Shown here piece by piece: positions 1 to 5,833 of a DNA stretch of 64,000 bases. The first letter of the stretch is position 1; the number at the start of each line of letters is the position of its first letter. This DNA is from Microbacterium aurum (GTDB taxonomy: Bacteria; Actinomycetota; Actinomycetes; Actinomycetales; Microbacteriaceae): NCBI RefSeq assembly GCF_016907815.1, contig NZ_JAFBCQ010000001.1, positions 2,170,001-2,234,000 on the forward strand, given 5' to 3'. Under the pieces are notes generated by a model. The model was not told the origin of the DNA, made no database searches, and saw only the letters and a list, made by a program, of their open reading frames with translations. Position numbers and translations under genes: made by a program.

Positions 1-1
1 G

Positions 2-613
2 ACGGACGACGTCTCGCTCGGAAACGACGCGGTTGATCTTGATGCTGTTGTGCTCTACGCGGATCTCAAGGATTCGACAGGCCTCGTTAAGGGATATAAG
101 GATTGGTTCGCGTCGGCTGTCTACAAGAACTATCTCTACACGGTGTCGAGAATCATCCGCGCACACGACGGTTCGATAACAGCGTTTGACGGCGACCGGG
201 TCATGGGCGTCTTCATCGGAGGATCGAAGAACAGCAACGCGGCGAAGGTCGCTCTCAAGATCAACTGGGCAGTCAAGAACATCCTTCAGCCCGCAATCGA
301 CGCCAAGTATCCGAAGAACACCTACCAGCTCCAGCAGAAGGTTGGGATCGCGGCTTCGAAGACGATGGTCTCGCGCACCGGAATCCGGGGGAGCAATGAC
401 CTCGTCTGGGTGGGGAACGCAGCCAACATTGCTGCCAAACTGGCCGCTCTTCACTCCAGCTACCCGACATACATCACCGCGGATGTCTACAACATGCTCT
501 CGGACGAGACAAAGTTCGGCGGAACGCCCAAGCGCGATATGTGGACAGATCTTGGTAGTGGCGATGGCTACGGGAAGATCTACGGGTCTACGTTCTGGTG
601 GTCCATGTCATGA
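2..613 (+). CDS. Class III nucleotide cyclase, Pycsar-like (5' end outside window)
   Basis: The reading frame is open to the window edge, so the GTG at 50 is internal and the true start lies upstream; 203 residues are visible. The motif LYADLKDST carries the first metal-binding Asp and FDGDRVMGVF the second, as in adenylate/guanylate cyclase catalytic domains. WVGNAANIAAKL matches the transition-state segment: the Asn is kept, but Lys sits where most class III cyclases have Arg. The usual purine-selecting Lys before the second metal site is not evident, which fits the pyrimidine cyclases (PycC) of Pycsar anti-phage systems. Its TGA overlaps the ATG of the AAA+ gene by 4 nt (ATGA), so the two are translationally coupled. 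The cyclase fold is well supported; the Pycsar assignment and the product (cCMP or cUMP) are inference. Confidence 0.75.
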   Translation, partial: TDDVSLGNDAVDLDAVVLYADLKDSTGLVKGYKDWFASAVYKNYLYTVSRIIRAHDGSITAFDGDRVMGVFIGGSKNSNAAKVALKINWAVKNILQPAIDAKYPKNTYQLQQKVGIAASKTMVSRTGIRGSNDLVWVGNAANIAAKLAALHSSYPTYITADVYNMLSDETKFGGTPKRDMWTDLGSGDGYGKIYGSTFWWSMS

Positions 614-1851
614 GTACTCCTGCGCCCATCGGCATCGTCGGCACGCTCGTGCGCGTCGTCCGTACCGACCCTGACAACCAGACACTTCACTTCCGTCTAC
701 CCGACGGCCGCGTGGGACGAGCCTCTGGACTGCTCAATGTCGACACGATCGATGCGGGTGACACGATTGTCGTAAGCGACAACGGGTGGGAGCAGGTACC
801 GAACGATATCTGGTCAGATCAGAACTCGATTGCGGTCGTCCGTCGCGTTCTCGATGACGGGTCAATCCTCATCGACAGCGGTGTCACCATCCGACCAATC
901 CACAACCCGTTGGGCATCGAGATCGAAACGGGCAATACCGTCGAGTACAACGACGCCGACGGTATTCTTCGCATCATCTCTGAGACACCGATTCGCAGCG
1001 GAAGCTTTGGTCAGGACGTCGATATCGACGGCGTGCGTCGTGAGTATCTCTGGGACACCGCCAACCTTGGTGCAGGCTTCAGCGACTTCGGTGGCTATCC
1101 CGAGGTTAAGGAGCGTGCGCGTGAGCTGATCGAGACTCAGCTCGAGCGCCGAAAGAAGCTCGACAAGATCAAGGCTCGCCCGGTGAAGGGCGTCCTATTC
1201 ACAGGTCCTCCCGGAACCGGCAAGACCCATCTAGCGCGGATCATCGCCCGGGAGTCCAAGGCGGAGTTCTTCCTAGTCAGCGGTCCCTCGGTTGTGAGCA
1301 AGTGGGTCGGTGACACAGAAGACACGCTGCGCAAGATCTTCGAGGCAGCTACGGCCAGTCCTTCGGGCCGCGCGATCATCTTCTTCGACGAGATCGACAG
1401 CATCGCTGAGCGACGTGGAGGCGACTCTCATGAGGCTTCACGTCGCCTGGTTGCGCAGCTCCTGACCTTGATGGACGGATTTGACGACGAAGGCAAGAGC
1501 GTCATCGTCATTGCTGCGACCAACCGTGTTGAGGCTCTCGACCCGGCACTCACCCGTCCTGGCCGCTTTGACTGGGAGATTGAGTTCGGCATGCCGACTC
1601 TCCAAGATCGATTCGAAATCCTCCAGGTGCGCGCTAACCACTTGACTACGAGTGGGGAGCTTCCGCTTGAGGACCTTGCGGCCCTCACTGAGGGATGGTC
1701 AGCCGCCGACTTGACGGCGATCTGGACCGAGGCTGCTCTGGTAGCGGCCGGTGATGATCGCGCGGCCATCTCTGCCGAAGACCTTGCAGCAGCGCTCGAA
1801 CGAGTGGCGAGCAAGCCTCGACGGTCTAACGCACAGGAGGCAACGCGATGA
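610..1851 (+). CDS. AAA+ ATPase, CDC48/PAN-like, with N-terminal beta-rich domain
   Basis: This protein of 413 aa is the second gene of the operon. ATG 610 is chosen because it overlaps the cyclase stop; upstream in-frame codons would only add four residues. Residues 1-150 are rich in short beta-strand-like segments, resembling the OB/barrel domains in front of PAN and Mpa ATPases. A p97-like linker (FSDFGGYPEV, about 157) precedes Walker A GPPGTGKT (199-206), pore-loop KWVG (231-234), Walker B IIFFDE (256-261) and the second region of homology ATNR...RPGRF with arginine fingers. All ATPase residues look intact, so it should be an active hexameric unfoldase or remodeller. No protease domain or membrane segment is seen. 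In this operon it could remodel the cyclase or the DUF6414 protein, loosely as TRIP13 does in CBASS; that is inference. Confidence 0.85.
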   Translation: MSTPAPIGIVGTLVRVVRTDPDNQTLHFRLPDGRVGRASGLLNVDTIDAGDTIVVSDNGWEQVPNDIWSDQNSIAVVRRVLDDGSILIDSGVTIRPIHNPLGIEIETGNTVEYNDADGILRIISETPIRSGSFGQDVDIDGVRREYLWDTANLGAGFSDFGGYPEVKERARELIETQLERRKKLDKIKARPVKGVLFTGPPGTGKTHLARIIARESKAEFFLVSGPSVVSKWVGDTEDTLRKIFEAATASPSGRAIIFFDEIDSIAERRGGDSHEASRRLVAQLLTLMDGFDDEGKSVIVIAATNRVEALDPALTRPGRFDWEIEFGMPTLQDRFEILQVRANHLTTSGELPLEDLAALTEGWSAADLTAIWTEAALVAAGDDRAAISAEDLAAALERVASKPRRSNAQEATR

Positions 1852-3218
1852 GTCTGCGAGACAGGTGGCGTCGTTGGCGCAATCGACCGAAACGAAAGAA
1901 GGTCGCCGAGTCCCGGCCGGAGCCAACCAAGGAAGATCTGCGAGAGTTCGTCTATCTCGATGAGGTCAGCCTGCGAAGCCTGCTCTCATCGCTCCGCGGC
2001 GATCTGCGCGACGGCTTGTCCGAGCAGACGGCGGACGAAATTCAGGTTGAAGCTGCGACGAATCTTGAAGCGACAAACGCACTGGTCGGCACGGCCGGCG
2101 TATCTTCGCGTTTTCAGACGACCAACAGTAGCACCATCCAAACTTCGCGCAAGGCGACCGTTCAGTCATGGTTCCGAGACTTTCGAGCCATCAAGGGGCT
2201 TCGTCTCATCGAGGTTGCTGAAGCGCAGAGCCCCGCCGCGGATCTCGACGCCCTGTTGACGACGACAGACAAGTCGCTCCTCGCTGCGGACGAGGACCTT
2301 CGACGAGGAGAACTGGTCGAGTTCCGGGTGAGGCTCTCGGCAGATCCGGTGTACCGGCTCAGCACGATGGTGACCGAGTTCACTGGAATGGCTGACGACT
2401 TCCCGGACATGTTCGCCGCCGGCAACGCTCACGAGACGCTCAAACAGGTCCAGCCCGTGAACAAGATCCTCGAACGACTTCTTGCCGGGCTCATCCCCAT
2501 CCGAGCGACGGCAGTTGACTACTCAGTCATCACGGTCAAGGGAAACAAGTACGTCGTTCACGACGATCTCATTCGCGACCTAAAGGTGAAGCGCGAACCT
2601 CTTCAGATCGTTGGACTCACCGAGCATCTGGCGTACTGGAAGGACCTGCGACGTGTTCTCTTCTCAGACGCCGAGTTCACCCTGATCGGGCGGGTCTCGC
2701 GACCTGGGCTGCACTCTTCGTGGACTCCGGTGAAGCTCGCGGATATGTTCCAGGAGCTCGTGCCCGATCTTGTGGGGCAGATCAATGCTGCTGGACGTAT
2801 CCCACTCTCGGCCGCCGAGCCAGTCACAACCGAAAACCCGAACAGCGCGAAGCTCAGCAAGGCACTCGAACTCTATGTGGAGGCTTTCCTGGTTGCTACC
2901 GACAAGACGCTCACCGAATCAGAGCAGTCCGCACTCGCTCGCGAGATCACGACGCTGAGCAATCGCTCGGGGTCTGCCTCGGATCAACGAAGCGCCTTCG
3001 CAATGACGAATGGACGTTTGCAGGAGATCACCGGAGCGAAGGTGAAGTCGAAGCGCGATCTTGAACTTCGCGAGCAGGCACGAACCGCAAGCGGACTTCC
3101 GCTATTTCCGATGATGGGCTCGAACGCGCTCGTGCCGACCGCGCCGCCGACCACCATTTCGACAGATGCAGAAGTTGAGTACCTTATCGACACAGAGATC
3201 ATCGCGATCTATTGGTAG
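1848..3218 (+). CDS. DUF6414-like protein, third gene of the cyclase operon
   Basis: This 456-aa protein starts at ATG 1848, overlapping the AAA+ stop by 4 nt, with GGAGG at 1836-1840. The N-terminus is basic (about 25 residues with many Arg/Lys). The stretch EFVYLDEVSLRSLLSSL and, about 70 residues on, SRKATVQSWFRDF resemble DUF6414 family proteins as I remember them; a profile search was not possible. No clear transmembrane helix, nuclease motif or TIR motif is visible. The middle holds possible dimerisation or coiled segments (RDLKVKREPLQIVGLTEHL). It ends just before a convergent HTH remnant. As the last gene of a cyclase operon it is the natural candidate for effector or sensor, but no function is established. 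Confidence 0.6.
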   Translation: MSLRDRWRRWRNRPKRKKVAESRPEPTKEDLREFVYLDEVSLRSLLSSLRGDLRDGLSEQTADEIQVEAATNLEATNALVGTAGVSSRFQTTNSSTIQTSRKATVQSWFRDFRAIKGLRLIEVAEAQSPAADLDALLTTTDKSLLAADEDLRRGELVEFRVRLSADPVYRLSTMVTEFTGMADDFPDMFAAGNAHETLKQVQPVNKILERLLAGLIPIRATAVDYSVITVKGNKYVVHDDLIRDLKVKREPLQIVGLTEHLAYWKDLRRVLFSDAEFTLIGRVSRPGLHSSWTPVKLADMFQELVPDLVGQINAAGRIPLSAAEPVTTENPNSAKLSKALELYVEAFLVATDKTLTESEQSALAREITTLSNRSGSASDQRSAFAMTNGRLQEITGAKVKSKRDLELREQARTASGLPLFPMMGSNALVPTAPPTTISTDAEVEYLIDTEIIAIYW

Positions 3219-3230
3219 CCCCGCACCCCC

Positions 3231-3686
3231 CTAGTGCCTCCGTCGCGGAGCCCTTGCGCGTGTTTCGACACCAGACCGGTGCAGGGATCGAAGTACTGCT
3301 CCGTGTGAGAGCCCATACTCCTTCTCTAGTTCCGACATGGTGCGGCCAGCCTCGTAATCACGTGCCATCGCCGCAGCCTCCTCGTCACTCACCTTCCGCT
3401 TCGAGATCTGAACCCCCTGCTCGCGGAGCATCCGGGTGAGCGCGGAGTTCGCGACACCCAGCTCGCGAGCGAGGGACCGCACGCTCTCACCTGTCTTGGC
3501 GCGCTGGACGAGCTCCGCGACCTTGACGCTGCCGAGGCGCTTCGACAGCTCGTGGCTTCGGTACGCATCCGGGGTGCTCAAACCCTCCTCCCCATCGCCA
3601 GGAACCGCGAGATTCCGCAGTTCTACAGGGGTGAACGGCAGATCCCAATGGTTAGAACAGAGGTCGTTTAGGTCAGCAAGACGCAA
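3231..3686 (-). pseudogene. Helix-turn-helix protein, probable recombinase-type remnant
   Basis: This reading frame of 151 codons contains two HTH-like segments: one around GESVRSLARELGVANSALTR and one around GRTMSELEKEYGLSHGAVLR, followed by a basic tail. Such paired HTHs occur at the C-termini of resolvases and in small phage or island regulators. The only available start is a TTG inside the terminator hairpin at 3685-3709, and no downstream ATG/GTG start is convincing. The gene is therefore probably truncated at its 5' end. It converges on the DUF6414 gene with a 12-nt gap. It may be the scar of an integration module at the island edge. Confidence 0.4.
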
Positions 3687-3709: not shown

Positions 3710-3729
3710 GTCGTTGGCGCGGTGATGCG

Positions 3730-5775
3730 TCAGCGCATCGCGTCGCCGATGTAGGAGTACTTGACGAACACCTCGCTCGCCCAGCCGGCCTCCTCGAGAA
3801 CGCCCTGGACGGCCGAGAGCATGTAGCGCGAGTCCCAGCCCATGTAGAGGAACGGGCTGTCCTCGTCGGCGGACAGGCGGTCCCACTGCCCGTTCCATGC
3901 CATCGCGGGATACACCGGGCCGCCGCGGCGCGCGCTGAAATCCATGACGCTCTGCCGCGACGCGGGGGACTCCGCCCACAGGCGCTGGAAGATCCGGTGG
4001 AACAGATACCGGATGTCCTTCACTTCCCAGTGCTCGCCCCGGAACTCGACGTAGTCGAACTCCCGCTCCCACCCGCGAGGCCAGCCACGGCGCTGCTTCG
4101 CGTCGAGGATCGGCGTGAGGTTGTCGTCGTCGATGCTGACCACCGCGGGGCGGCGCCACACCTGCAGGAAGCGCTCGGTCAGCTGCTCGGTGCGACGGGC
4201 GATCGCCGCGGTGCTCCACACCTCGGCATCCGCCACTTCGCGCGTCAACGCCAGCGCACTGTCGCCGTAGACGGCGCGCTTTGCCGGGTAGGCAGCATCG
4301 AACGCGCGCTCGAACAGCGACTCCTCCAGGAGCGCGAGGTTGCCGAGGGTCGGCGCGAGCGCGCGGAAGCTGTTCTGCTCGTCGTCGGAGAGCTCCGCCC
4401 AGCGACGGATGCCGTCGGGCGACCAATCGTCGCCGGGAGCCGTCGGCGCGATGTGCTCGATGTCCCACCCCGCTTCCGCGCCGACCCCCGACATCCGGCC
4501 GAGCACGTAGCGCGCGTGGGGGAGCGCGCTGTATTTCAGGCCCACCCGCGTGCGCTCATCGGACGGCGTGATGCGCGCGATCGCGTGCACGAGCTCGTCG
4601 CGCCCGAGCTGCGCCGCGCGACACAGCCGTGCCACGAGGCGATCGGTGGTGACCCCGACGATCGTGCGCCGCAGCAGCAGCGATTGCAGTTGCTCGAGAC
4701 TCGCGACGAGCTCGTCGTGCGCGAGCTCGCCGTGGATGTGGTCGCGGTACAGCCGGAGCACGAGCGGGTAGACGCCCCCGCCGAAGGTGCCGAGGGACGC
4801 GAACTGTGCGCCGATCGCGGCATCGGGCGTCTCGGCTGGCTCCAGCAGCAGCCGGTAGATCTCGGCGAACTCGCGCCACTGCGCCGCGCGCTGACGGAGC
4901 GTCGCGACGTCGAGGCGCGGGAACTCGTGCCGGAAAGCGTCGTAGACGCCGCGGCCACCGGTGACCGAGACCTCCCGCCCCGTCAGCATCACGAGGTAGT
5001 GCCGCCAGAACGAGCCGATCTGTTCCCCGGTGGCGTGCTCGATCGGCAGCCAATAGTCGCGCTCGATCTCGGTCTGCTCGGCGTGCGTGAGACCCATGAG
5101 GACGTAGTTGTGGATCAGTTCGTGATCGCGCAGCGGCTCGCCGGTGGAGTTGAGGCTCTCGAAGATCTGCTGCGCGTTGGCCTCGGCGCCGAGCGTGATC
5201 GACACGTGCTCGAGCTTCTGCAGACCCCGCCAGATGTCGGCCGCCTCATCGGGGCGGATCTGGCTGCGGAAGAAGGCGTAGTTGTCGTCGAACCGCGACA
5301 CCCGCCCCTCTTCGCCTTCGGCGCGTCGGTCGAGGACGACGCTCTCGAACACGTCGGCCCAGGCGCGGTGCGGGCGCAGCTTCGTGCGTGTCGGGTCGTC
5401 GGTGCGCACGAGCACCCGCTCCAGCTCCGCGGCGAGCCGCGGGTCGTCATCGCGCAGAGTGTGATGCAGCGCCGCGATCAGGAGCATCAGGGTCGTGATC
5501 CGCTGCTGACCGTCGATCAGCACGAGGTGCGCGTCCCCGGCATCCTCCCCGCCGGCCGTGGACAGGATGGAGCCGATGAAGTGCGTGTCCGCCGAATCGG
5601 CGCCGGCGACGGCGCGGATGTCGCCCAGAAGCTGCTCGCAGCCGCCGATGTCCCACCGGTACTGGCGCTGATACACCGGGACGACGATCGTGGTGTCGGA
5701 TGCCGAGAGCCACCCGATCGTGTTGACGGCGACGGCCGCGACGTTGGCGGCGGGGACGGTCGTGGCGTTGCTCAT
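3730..5775 (-). CDS. DUF262/DUF1524 protein, GmrSD-like restriction factor candidate
   Basis: The product is 681 aa from ATG 5775; a GTG at 5790 would add five residues, but its only Shine-Dalgarno candidate overlaps it. The DUF262 half carries VPVYQRQYRWD (32-42) and IDGQQR (87-92), the ParB-like NTPase signatures of GmrS. The DUF1524 part carries DIEHIAP with H441 and P444, the His-Me-type nuclease motif of GmrD. A C-terminal segment from about 560 to 681, rich in Trp, Phe and Tyr, is not part of either domain; I do not recognise it. GmrSD proteins are type IV restriction enzymes acting on modified phage DNA. It ends at the bidirectional terminator, beside the cyclase operon. GGATGCC occurs several times in it, so it looks resident rather than recently acquired. 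Family assignment is solid; the target is unknown. Confidence 0.85.
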   Translation of the reverse strand: MSNATTVPAANVAAVAVNTIGWLSASDTTIVVPVYQRQYRWDIGGCEQLLGDIRAVAGADSADTHFIGSILSTAGGEDAGDAHLVLIDGQQRITTLMLLIAALHHTLRDDDPRLAAELERVLVRTDDPTRTKLRPHRAWADVFESVVLDRRAEGEEGRVSRFDDNYAFFRSQIRPDEAADIWRGLQKLEHVSITLGAEANAQQIFESLNSTGEPLRDHELIHNYVLMGLTHAEQTEIERDYWLPIEHATGEQIGSFWRHYLVMLTGREVSVTGGRGVYDAFRHEFPRLDVATLRQRAAQWREFAEIYRLLLEPAETPDAAIGAQFASLGTFGGGVYPLVLRLYRDHIHGELAHDELVASLEQLQSLLLRRTIVGVTTDRLVARLCRAAQLGRDELVHAIARITPSDERTRVGLKYSALPHARYVLGRMSGVGAEAGWDIEHIAPTAPGDDWSPDGIRRWAELSDDEQNSFRALAPTLGNLALLEESLFERAFDAAYPAKRAVYGDSALALTREVADAEVWSTAAIARRTEQLTERFLQVWRRPAVVSIDDDNLTPILDAKQRRGWPRGWEREFDYVEFRGEHWEVKDIRYLFHRIFQRLWAESPASRQSVMDFSARRGGPVYPAMAWNGQWDRLSADEDSPFLYMGWDSRYMLSAVQGVLEEAGWASEVFVKYSYIGDAMR

Positions 5776-5833
5776 TTTGGTGCGAATCACTCCTCGGAAA
5801 CCCCGATCGAGTCTACTGGCGCACCCGCCGCGG

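Follow-up and report, generated by a model that had tools for sequence, protein, structure and literature searches.

The window analysed here is a stretch of 64,000 nucleotides (nt) from Microbacterium aurum, whose genome assembly consists of one 3.41-Mb contig (window coordinates G000:C1:2170001-2234000; G and L numbers denote genomes and loci), and it begins inside the gene of a PycC-family pyrimidine cyclase that belongs to a run of overlapping genes. The upstream 29 residues of this enzyme, together with the gene for a PycTM effector, precede the window and were recovered from the adjoining genome sequence (L005), which supplied the cyclase N-terminus that the first-pass annotation of the window had listed as missing. 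The complete operon comprises four genes in the order PycTM, PycC, AAA+ ATPase and DUF6414 protein, with successive overlaps of 10, 4 and 4 nt (Table 1). The latter two overlaps are ATGA at 610-613 and 1848-1851, so that the three open reading frames (ORFs) and 4-nt junctions first described within the window are present as annotated. Judged from gene content, the first two genes are a complete and ordinary pyrimidine cyclase system for antiphage resistance (Pycsar), and the last two are a separate conserved module. The region also has the foreign composition ascribed to it, with a guanine plus cytosine content of 59.1% over positions 1-3218 vs 70.5% over positions 3718-64000. The 4.7 kb examined for promoters contain one promoter-like site, which stops 11 nt short of the PycTM start, a weak signal given that shuffled sequences average 1.1 such sites. 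The overlapping genes are probably transcribed as one message that spans both the Pycsar genes and the pair that follows them.

Table 1. Features of the four-gene operon and its right-hand surroundings (window coordinates unless prefixed)
Feature	Position	Strand	Details
PycTM effector gene	L005:9316-9924 (G000:C1:2169316 on), outside window		202 amino acids (aa); PADLOC 8e-30; PF18967 7e-20
PycC pyrimidine cyclase, 3' part	1..613	+	full gene L005:9915-10613 = G000:C1:2169915-2170613, 232 aa; PADLOC 2e-89
Cdc48/PAN/Rpt-like AAA+ ATPase	610..1851	+	413 aa; PF00004 3.1e-43; first partner of pair
DUF6414 protein, long form	1848..3218	+	456 aa, C-terminus IAIYW; PF19952 1.2e-61; second partner of pair
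Island right edge, approximate	3717..3730	.	collinearity with relative G805 stops here
GmrSD/DUF262 gene	3730..5790	-	PF03235 2.1e-29, PF07510 4.8e-13; chromosomal backbone

The Pycsar genes

The part of the cyclase inside the window matches the PADLOC PycC model at 7.4e-80, and the full-length protein at 2e-89, with 7r65 as its nearest entry in the PDB (5e-51), in agreement with the Pycsar-like catalytic core read from the window. Entry 7r65 is the clade B enzyme BcPycC, in which residues Y50, D94 and R97 serve in recognition of uridine triphosphate (UTP) (PMC11224242). Residues Y48, D50, D92, D94 and R95 of the present cyclase align with Y50, D52, D94, D96 and R97 of BcPycC. The aspartates D52 and D96 of the latter occupy the class III metal-aspartate positions. 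The M. aurum enzyme therefore appears clade-B-like, with cyclic UMP (cUMP) as its predicted product. Its gene opens with an ATG at L005:9915, with AGGAG seven bases ahead of it.

The PycTM protein contains three hydrophobic stretches and scores 71.8 bits against PF18967 ('PycTM, Pycsar effector protein'; cut-off 27.2). A PycC-family cyclase with metal-binding and UTP-selecting residues of the clade B type and an adjacent PycTM effector, the sequence and gene-content features by which a Pycsar system is recognized, are found at this locus. Because PycTM and PycC already form a complete Pycsar, the DUF6414 protein is not required as its effector, and the earlier suggestion that it acts as the effector of the cyclase gives way to the PycTM gene directly upstream. 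The locus differs from the other Pycsar loci examined (L034-L036, L163-L165) in carrying two additional overlapping genes, for the AAA+ and DUF6414 proteins, which are absent from those loci.

The AAA+–DUF6414 pair

A profile was built from long DUF6414 proteins, and a scan of genome contigs yielded 67 loci; the scan was seeded by the single pattern R[EQ]F[VI]YLD[ED][IV], which misses divergent members and leaves the counts incomplete, and which lies within DUF6414 only, so that pairing with the AAA gene is not built into it. An AAA homologue stands directly upstream of DUF6414, on the same strand, in 67/67 of these loci. The DUF6414 gene was found again by phmmer in 66 of the 67 (the contig of L111 ends within its first residues), and an in-frame DUF6414 start compatible with a 4-nt overlap is present in 40 of the 66. 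The AAA gene is broken into two parts in L049 and L083, and the contigs of L052 and L072 start within it. Identities among the AAA proteins correlate with those among their DUF6414 partners (r = 0.90 for 63 pairs, window included; at most 0.13 in 500 shuffles). The pair spans Actinomycetota, Pseudomonadota, Chloroflexota, other phyla and Halobacteria, and no relative was detected in viral contigs by profile search. Among 366 genomes of the genus, long DUF6414 proteins are strong matches (E <= 7.5e-22) in five, including the host, and marginal (about 5e-4 to 9e-4) in five more. The split copy in L049 (L049:2253-4890) has its AAA pieces about 1.5 kb apart with an apparent insertion between them, and its DUF6414 frame is still open. 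Elsewhere, L025:9144-9899 (minus strand) and L086:5985-6740, in Pseudoclavibacter and Brevibacterium copies, encode a near-identical, helical-looking 251-aa protein that overlaps the AAA start and has no Pfam match (run on L086); it is a possible third gene of that branch.

The first-pass annotation had grouped cyclase, AAA+ and DUF6414 as one three-gene system, a proposal that would fail by its own criterion if the genes were rarely adjacent in other genomes, and that the distribution of the cyclase refutes. PycC accompanies the pair in 0/67 genome loci, a real test in the 63 with over 600 nt of sequence upstream of the AAA gene (641-885 nt in L063, L074 and L098; less than 200 nt in L052, L054, L056 and L072), although in L079 a PycTM-like ORF is located about 5 kb from the pair. 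It is likewise found at 0/7 plasmid loci and 0/7 order or genus loci of the pair, three of these 14 (two plasmid, one order/genus) being already among the 67; duplicates within the collections are L039 = L071, L044 = L106, L150 = L086, L025 = L087 and L031 = L105. From the side of the cyclase, the 35 plasmid records with PycC relatives and the 12 with DUF6414 have none in common, neither pair gene stands beside PycC in the six PycC loci inspected (three on plasmids, three in genomes), and PycC occurs in 1/366 genus genomes, that of the host. The AAA+–DUF6414 pair is conserved as a module of its own, and the PycC-AAA-DUF6414 arrangement has been seen once.

The AAA+ protein is, as first annotated, Cdc48/PAN-like and intact in its motor motifs. 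K205, D260, E261, N305, R316 and R319, corresponding to the Walker A lysine, the Walker B aspartate and glutamate, the sensor asparagine and two arginines, are kept in 33/33 aligned sequences, all of which also hold an aromatic pore-loop residue (26 W, 4 Y, 3 F; W232 in the M. aurum protein); in a second alignment, the more distant proteins of L030, L031 and L042 vary at the pore loop, and those of L030 and L042 lack the aromatic. An AlphaFold2 (AF2) model, with a predicted local distance difference test score (pLDDT) of 86.5, shows a beta-rich N-terminal part followed by one AAA module, and its best Foldseek match is the 26S Rpt chain 9e8l (2.9e-27), with p97 N-D1 also retrieved. With its motor apparently intact, the protein is taken to be an active threading unfoldase. 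Its C-terminus (...QEATR) lacks the HbYX motif and thus does not point to a proteasome partner.

The AAA fold, the beta-rich N-terminal part and the aromatic pore loop are shared with PAN, Rpt and Cdc48, but Cdc48 has two AAA modules and the present protein one, and its match to TIGR01243, although 2.2e-67, lies far under the cut-off of that model. It differs from PAN itself by scoring 218 bits against a 500-bit cut-off and by the missing HbYX tail. IetAS also consists of two genes, one of them for an AAA+ ATPase from the same broad clade (PADLOC IetA 1.3e-38, residues 166-403), but only 112 bits of the 510-bit cut-off of NCBIfam IteA are reached here. The partner of IetA is a subtilisin-like protease, whereas the partner here matches only DUF6414 in Pfam and nothing in PADLOC, and has no protease domain. 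Type III cyclic-oligonucleotide-based antiphage signalling systems (CBASS), composed of a CD-NTase, a HORMA protein and TRIP13, resemble the operon as a nucleotide cyclase operon that includes an AAA+ remodeller; they differ in that the four genes here give no HORMA or CD-NTase match in Pfam or PADLOC, and in that the AAA+ protein is closer to Cdc48/PAN than to TRIP13.

The second partner is a clear member of its family, scoring 209.4 bits against PF19952 (gathering cut-off 25), and 17 residues in addition to Met1 are invariant among 48 DUF6414 sequences. Its AF2 model (pLDDT 82.8) contains a flexible stretch rich in Gly, Ala and Ser between helices (residues 68-91, pLDDT under 50). The model has no fold match in the PDB at E<=0.001 and no significant one among viral models; a second-look fold search returned weak matches only, many of them OB folds, and the sole sequence match in the PDB has an E of 0.06. 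Hydropathy indicates no membrane segment, with no 19-residue mean above 1.35, and none of the papers covered by a literature search names DUF6414. At L011:1468-3453, a short-form DUF6414 is fused to an AAA_2 domain, different from the AAA of the pair, in one 661-aa protein. Because DUF6414 was never found without the AAA gene and a shorter form is fused to a different AAA domain in L011, it would be expected to work on or with the AAA+ ring, most likely as a substrate-presenting adaptor.

Neighbours of the pair and the island setting

A tree of 67 DUF6414 sequences, from 66 loci and the window, places the window protein in a five-row clade with support 100/100, whose upstream contexts are Pycsar (window), Gabija (L045), type I restriction–modification (RM; L048) and nothing assignable (L046, L103). 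The Gabija genes gajA and gajB lie 178 nt upstream of the pair in L045, and L048 has HsdR and a YgjP-like metallopeptidase, the latter overlapping the AAA start. A metallopeptidase of this kind lies between HsdR and the pair, overlapping both neighbours, in L048, L061, L066 and L067 (identified by Pfam in L048 and L066 only). Outside this clade, genes for CBASS E1-E2 proteins and a Cap4-like endonuclease are found 196 nt upstream of the pair in L055, where by our reading an AbiE-like pair lies downstream, type III RM genes precede the pair in L104 (116 nt) and L096 (about 0.7 kb), and a MkoC-like protein is encoded 43 nt upstream in L057; MkoC is a part of Mokosh.

The generality of these contexts was assessed with PADLOC on 92/118 upstream ORFs from 57 loci, 92/115 downstream ORFs from 56 loci and, as a control confined to Microbacteriaceae genomes, 92/116 ORFs from 20 regions. 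The upstream ORFs matched 309 PADLOC families at 1e-10 and 20 at 1e-90, and strong defence matches were assigned to at least 12/57 loci, a lower bound given the share of ORFs scanned (L045, L048, L055, L057, L061, L066, L067, L075, L078, L096, L100 and L104). Thresholds are mixed across these 12 (3.1e-68 for MkoC, mostly 1e-90 or better for the others, partly 1e-10 for type I RM), and the assignment of families to proteins was partly our own, through BLAST clusters. Nine of the 12 are same-strand neighbours; a transposase-like ORF intervenes in L075, and the defence genes of L078 and L100 have the opposite orientation. In the control ORFs one PADLOC family, mad3, appeared in 2/92; since mad3 was also present in three of the test set, it is taken as unspecific. 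With mad3 set aside, 12/57 loci compare with 0/20 control regions (p = 0.03, against a control drawn from one bacterial family). Downstream, a threshold of 1e-60 left 12 families with one protein each, in up to five loci (Gabija-like near L054 and L099, CD-NTase, SspD, AbiEii). These neighbours support the residence of the pair in defence islands, while the case for a special attachment at the 3' end of defence operons comes only from individual tight junctions.

In M. aurum itself, the operon occupies the far right edge of an island. In the relative G805, tRNA-Gln and the GmrSD region after it are 66 nt apart; the corresponding sequence of the host begins at window position 3717. The host has a complete tRNA-Gln (G000:2093838-2093920) and, in addition, a 35-nt stretch that repeats the tRNA 3' end (2126829-2126863). 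The intervening DNA (G000:C1:2093838-2173717, about 80 kb in total) makes up one or two islands and looks like two in tandem, one of them with a type IV secretion system (T4SS) coupling protein; type I RM genes, a PDC-S53 protein and an insertion sequence are also found there. The type I RM genes and, after them, the gene of a 912-aa helicase with a match to PADLOC PDC-S53 (E 0, 1273 bits) lie upstream of the Pycsar genes at L005:31-6685; HsdM there has a specificity-like end, and HsdR, seen in part because its frame reaches the start of L005, has a carboxypeptidase-regulatory-like insert. Directly upstream of PycTM, L005:6704-9162 holds transposase genes (HTH_Tnp_1; rve integrase core) that we read as IS3-like, and at the right edge of the island the minus strand of window 3231-3686 encodes a 151-aa protein with an HTH_58 match and a weak match to the CRISPR-repeat-binding Cbp1. 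The GmrSD gene beyond this edge has a strong match in 8/12 other same-genus genomes searched and is chromosomal backbone, outside both island and system. Defence had originally been argued in part from this restriction-like neighbour; the link to defence is upheld by the neighbours of the pair in other genomes and draws no support from GmrSD.

Interpretation of the composite operon

The explanation that we favour, and consider reasonably probable, is that a complete Pycsar on a mobile-type island at tRNA-Gln has been joined at its 3' end by an independent AAA+–DUF6414 defence or accessory module. As established for the Pycsar family, infection would activate PycC, cUMP would open PycTM and the membrane would fail. 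Powered by ATP, the AAA+ ring would work through its aromatic pore loops to unfold a protein or pull it apart, the target being selected by DUF6414; the latter may be a substrate-binding adaptor or itself the remodelled protein. The pair would act as a separate defence line, or as an accessory expressed together with the system upstream of it, whichever that is, and would need no cyclic nucleotide. Several observations weigh against assigning it such a role. Defence genes upstream (12/57) do not significantly exceed those downstream (5/56; p = 0.11), and in 45/57 loci the scanned upstream ORFs include no strong match to a known defence gene. The DUF6414 protein matched no family in PADLOC (2023), and neither its structure nor its sequence tells what it binds. 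Several copies of the pair are on plasmids and the copy of L050 lies near an ArdA anti-restriction gene, which would also fit a housekeeping role in mobile elements.

The plasmid copies (seven loci) and ArdA, together with the overlap of the pair with the ends of type I RM operons, the YgjP-like metallopeptidase between them and an island carrying a T4SS coupling protein, could be taken as signs of a device by which mobile elements alleviate restriction or counter defence, with the unfoldase taking apart restriction complexes of the host or of neighbouring genes in the way that ClpXP removes HsdR. This is unlikely given that the pair also follows Gabija, CBASS, type III RM and MkoC-like genes, that most scanned loci contain no RM gene and that viral contigs gave no relative by profile. 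The constant pairing and co-divergence, the flexible stretch at residues 68-91 and the fusion in L011 would also suit a toxin–antitoxin-like pair, with DUF6414 as a cytotoxic effector that the AAA+ protein holds inactive or activates; the lack of a nuclease, protease, TIR, pore or membrane signature in DUF6414 by Pfam, fold searches and hydropathy makes this improbable. An integrated four-gene Pycsar variant, with AAA+ and DUF6414 regulating or resetting PycC and PycTM, could be envisaged by analogy with the resetting of HORMA by TRIP13 in type III CBASS, and the gene overlaps, the single promoter-like site and a weak AAA+ match to TRIP13 models (9.6e-19) are consistent with it. It is the most doubtful of the three alternatives, as PycC is absent from every other testable locus of the pair, DUF6414 from the 35 PycC plasmid records and the pair from three PycC genomes, and as the occurrence of this PycC in a single genus genome makes the joining look like one event.

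A bolder and more general reading makes the pair an immunity plug-in that recombination has attached to the 3' ends of defence operons unrelated to one another (Pycsar, Gabija, CBASS, type I and III restriction, Mokosh-like), to each of which it would bring a shared function. CapK/CapS-type modular add-ons likewise form a gene pair that accompanies various immune operons, but they lie upstream of these and regulate transcription (PMC13373217), whereas the present pair lies downstream where it abuts a defence operon and consists of an unfoldase and a partner of unrecognized fold. The plug-in reading is put forward tentatively, as an unlikely one, and is graded slightly lower because the upstream vs downstream enrichment reaches only p = 0.11. 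If true, the shared function might be the sensing or reversal of inhibition by phage proteins, or the dismantling of complexes after use.

What had been supposed to be a new cyclase system thus becomes a known one, and the part left to explain is the pair, whose members were never seen apart in 67 loci and which is a candidate defence module without a name, built on an apparently intact unfoldase. The contrasting contexts of the pair within one close clade (Pycsar, Gabija and type I RM) make the question of whether it is a system of its own or an accessory to others directly testable.

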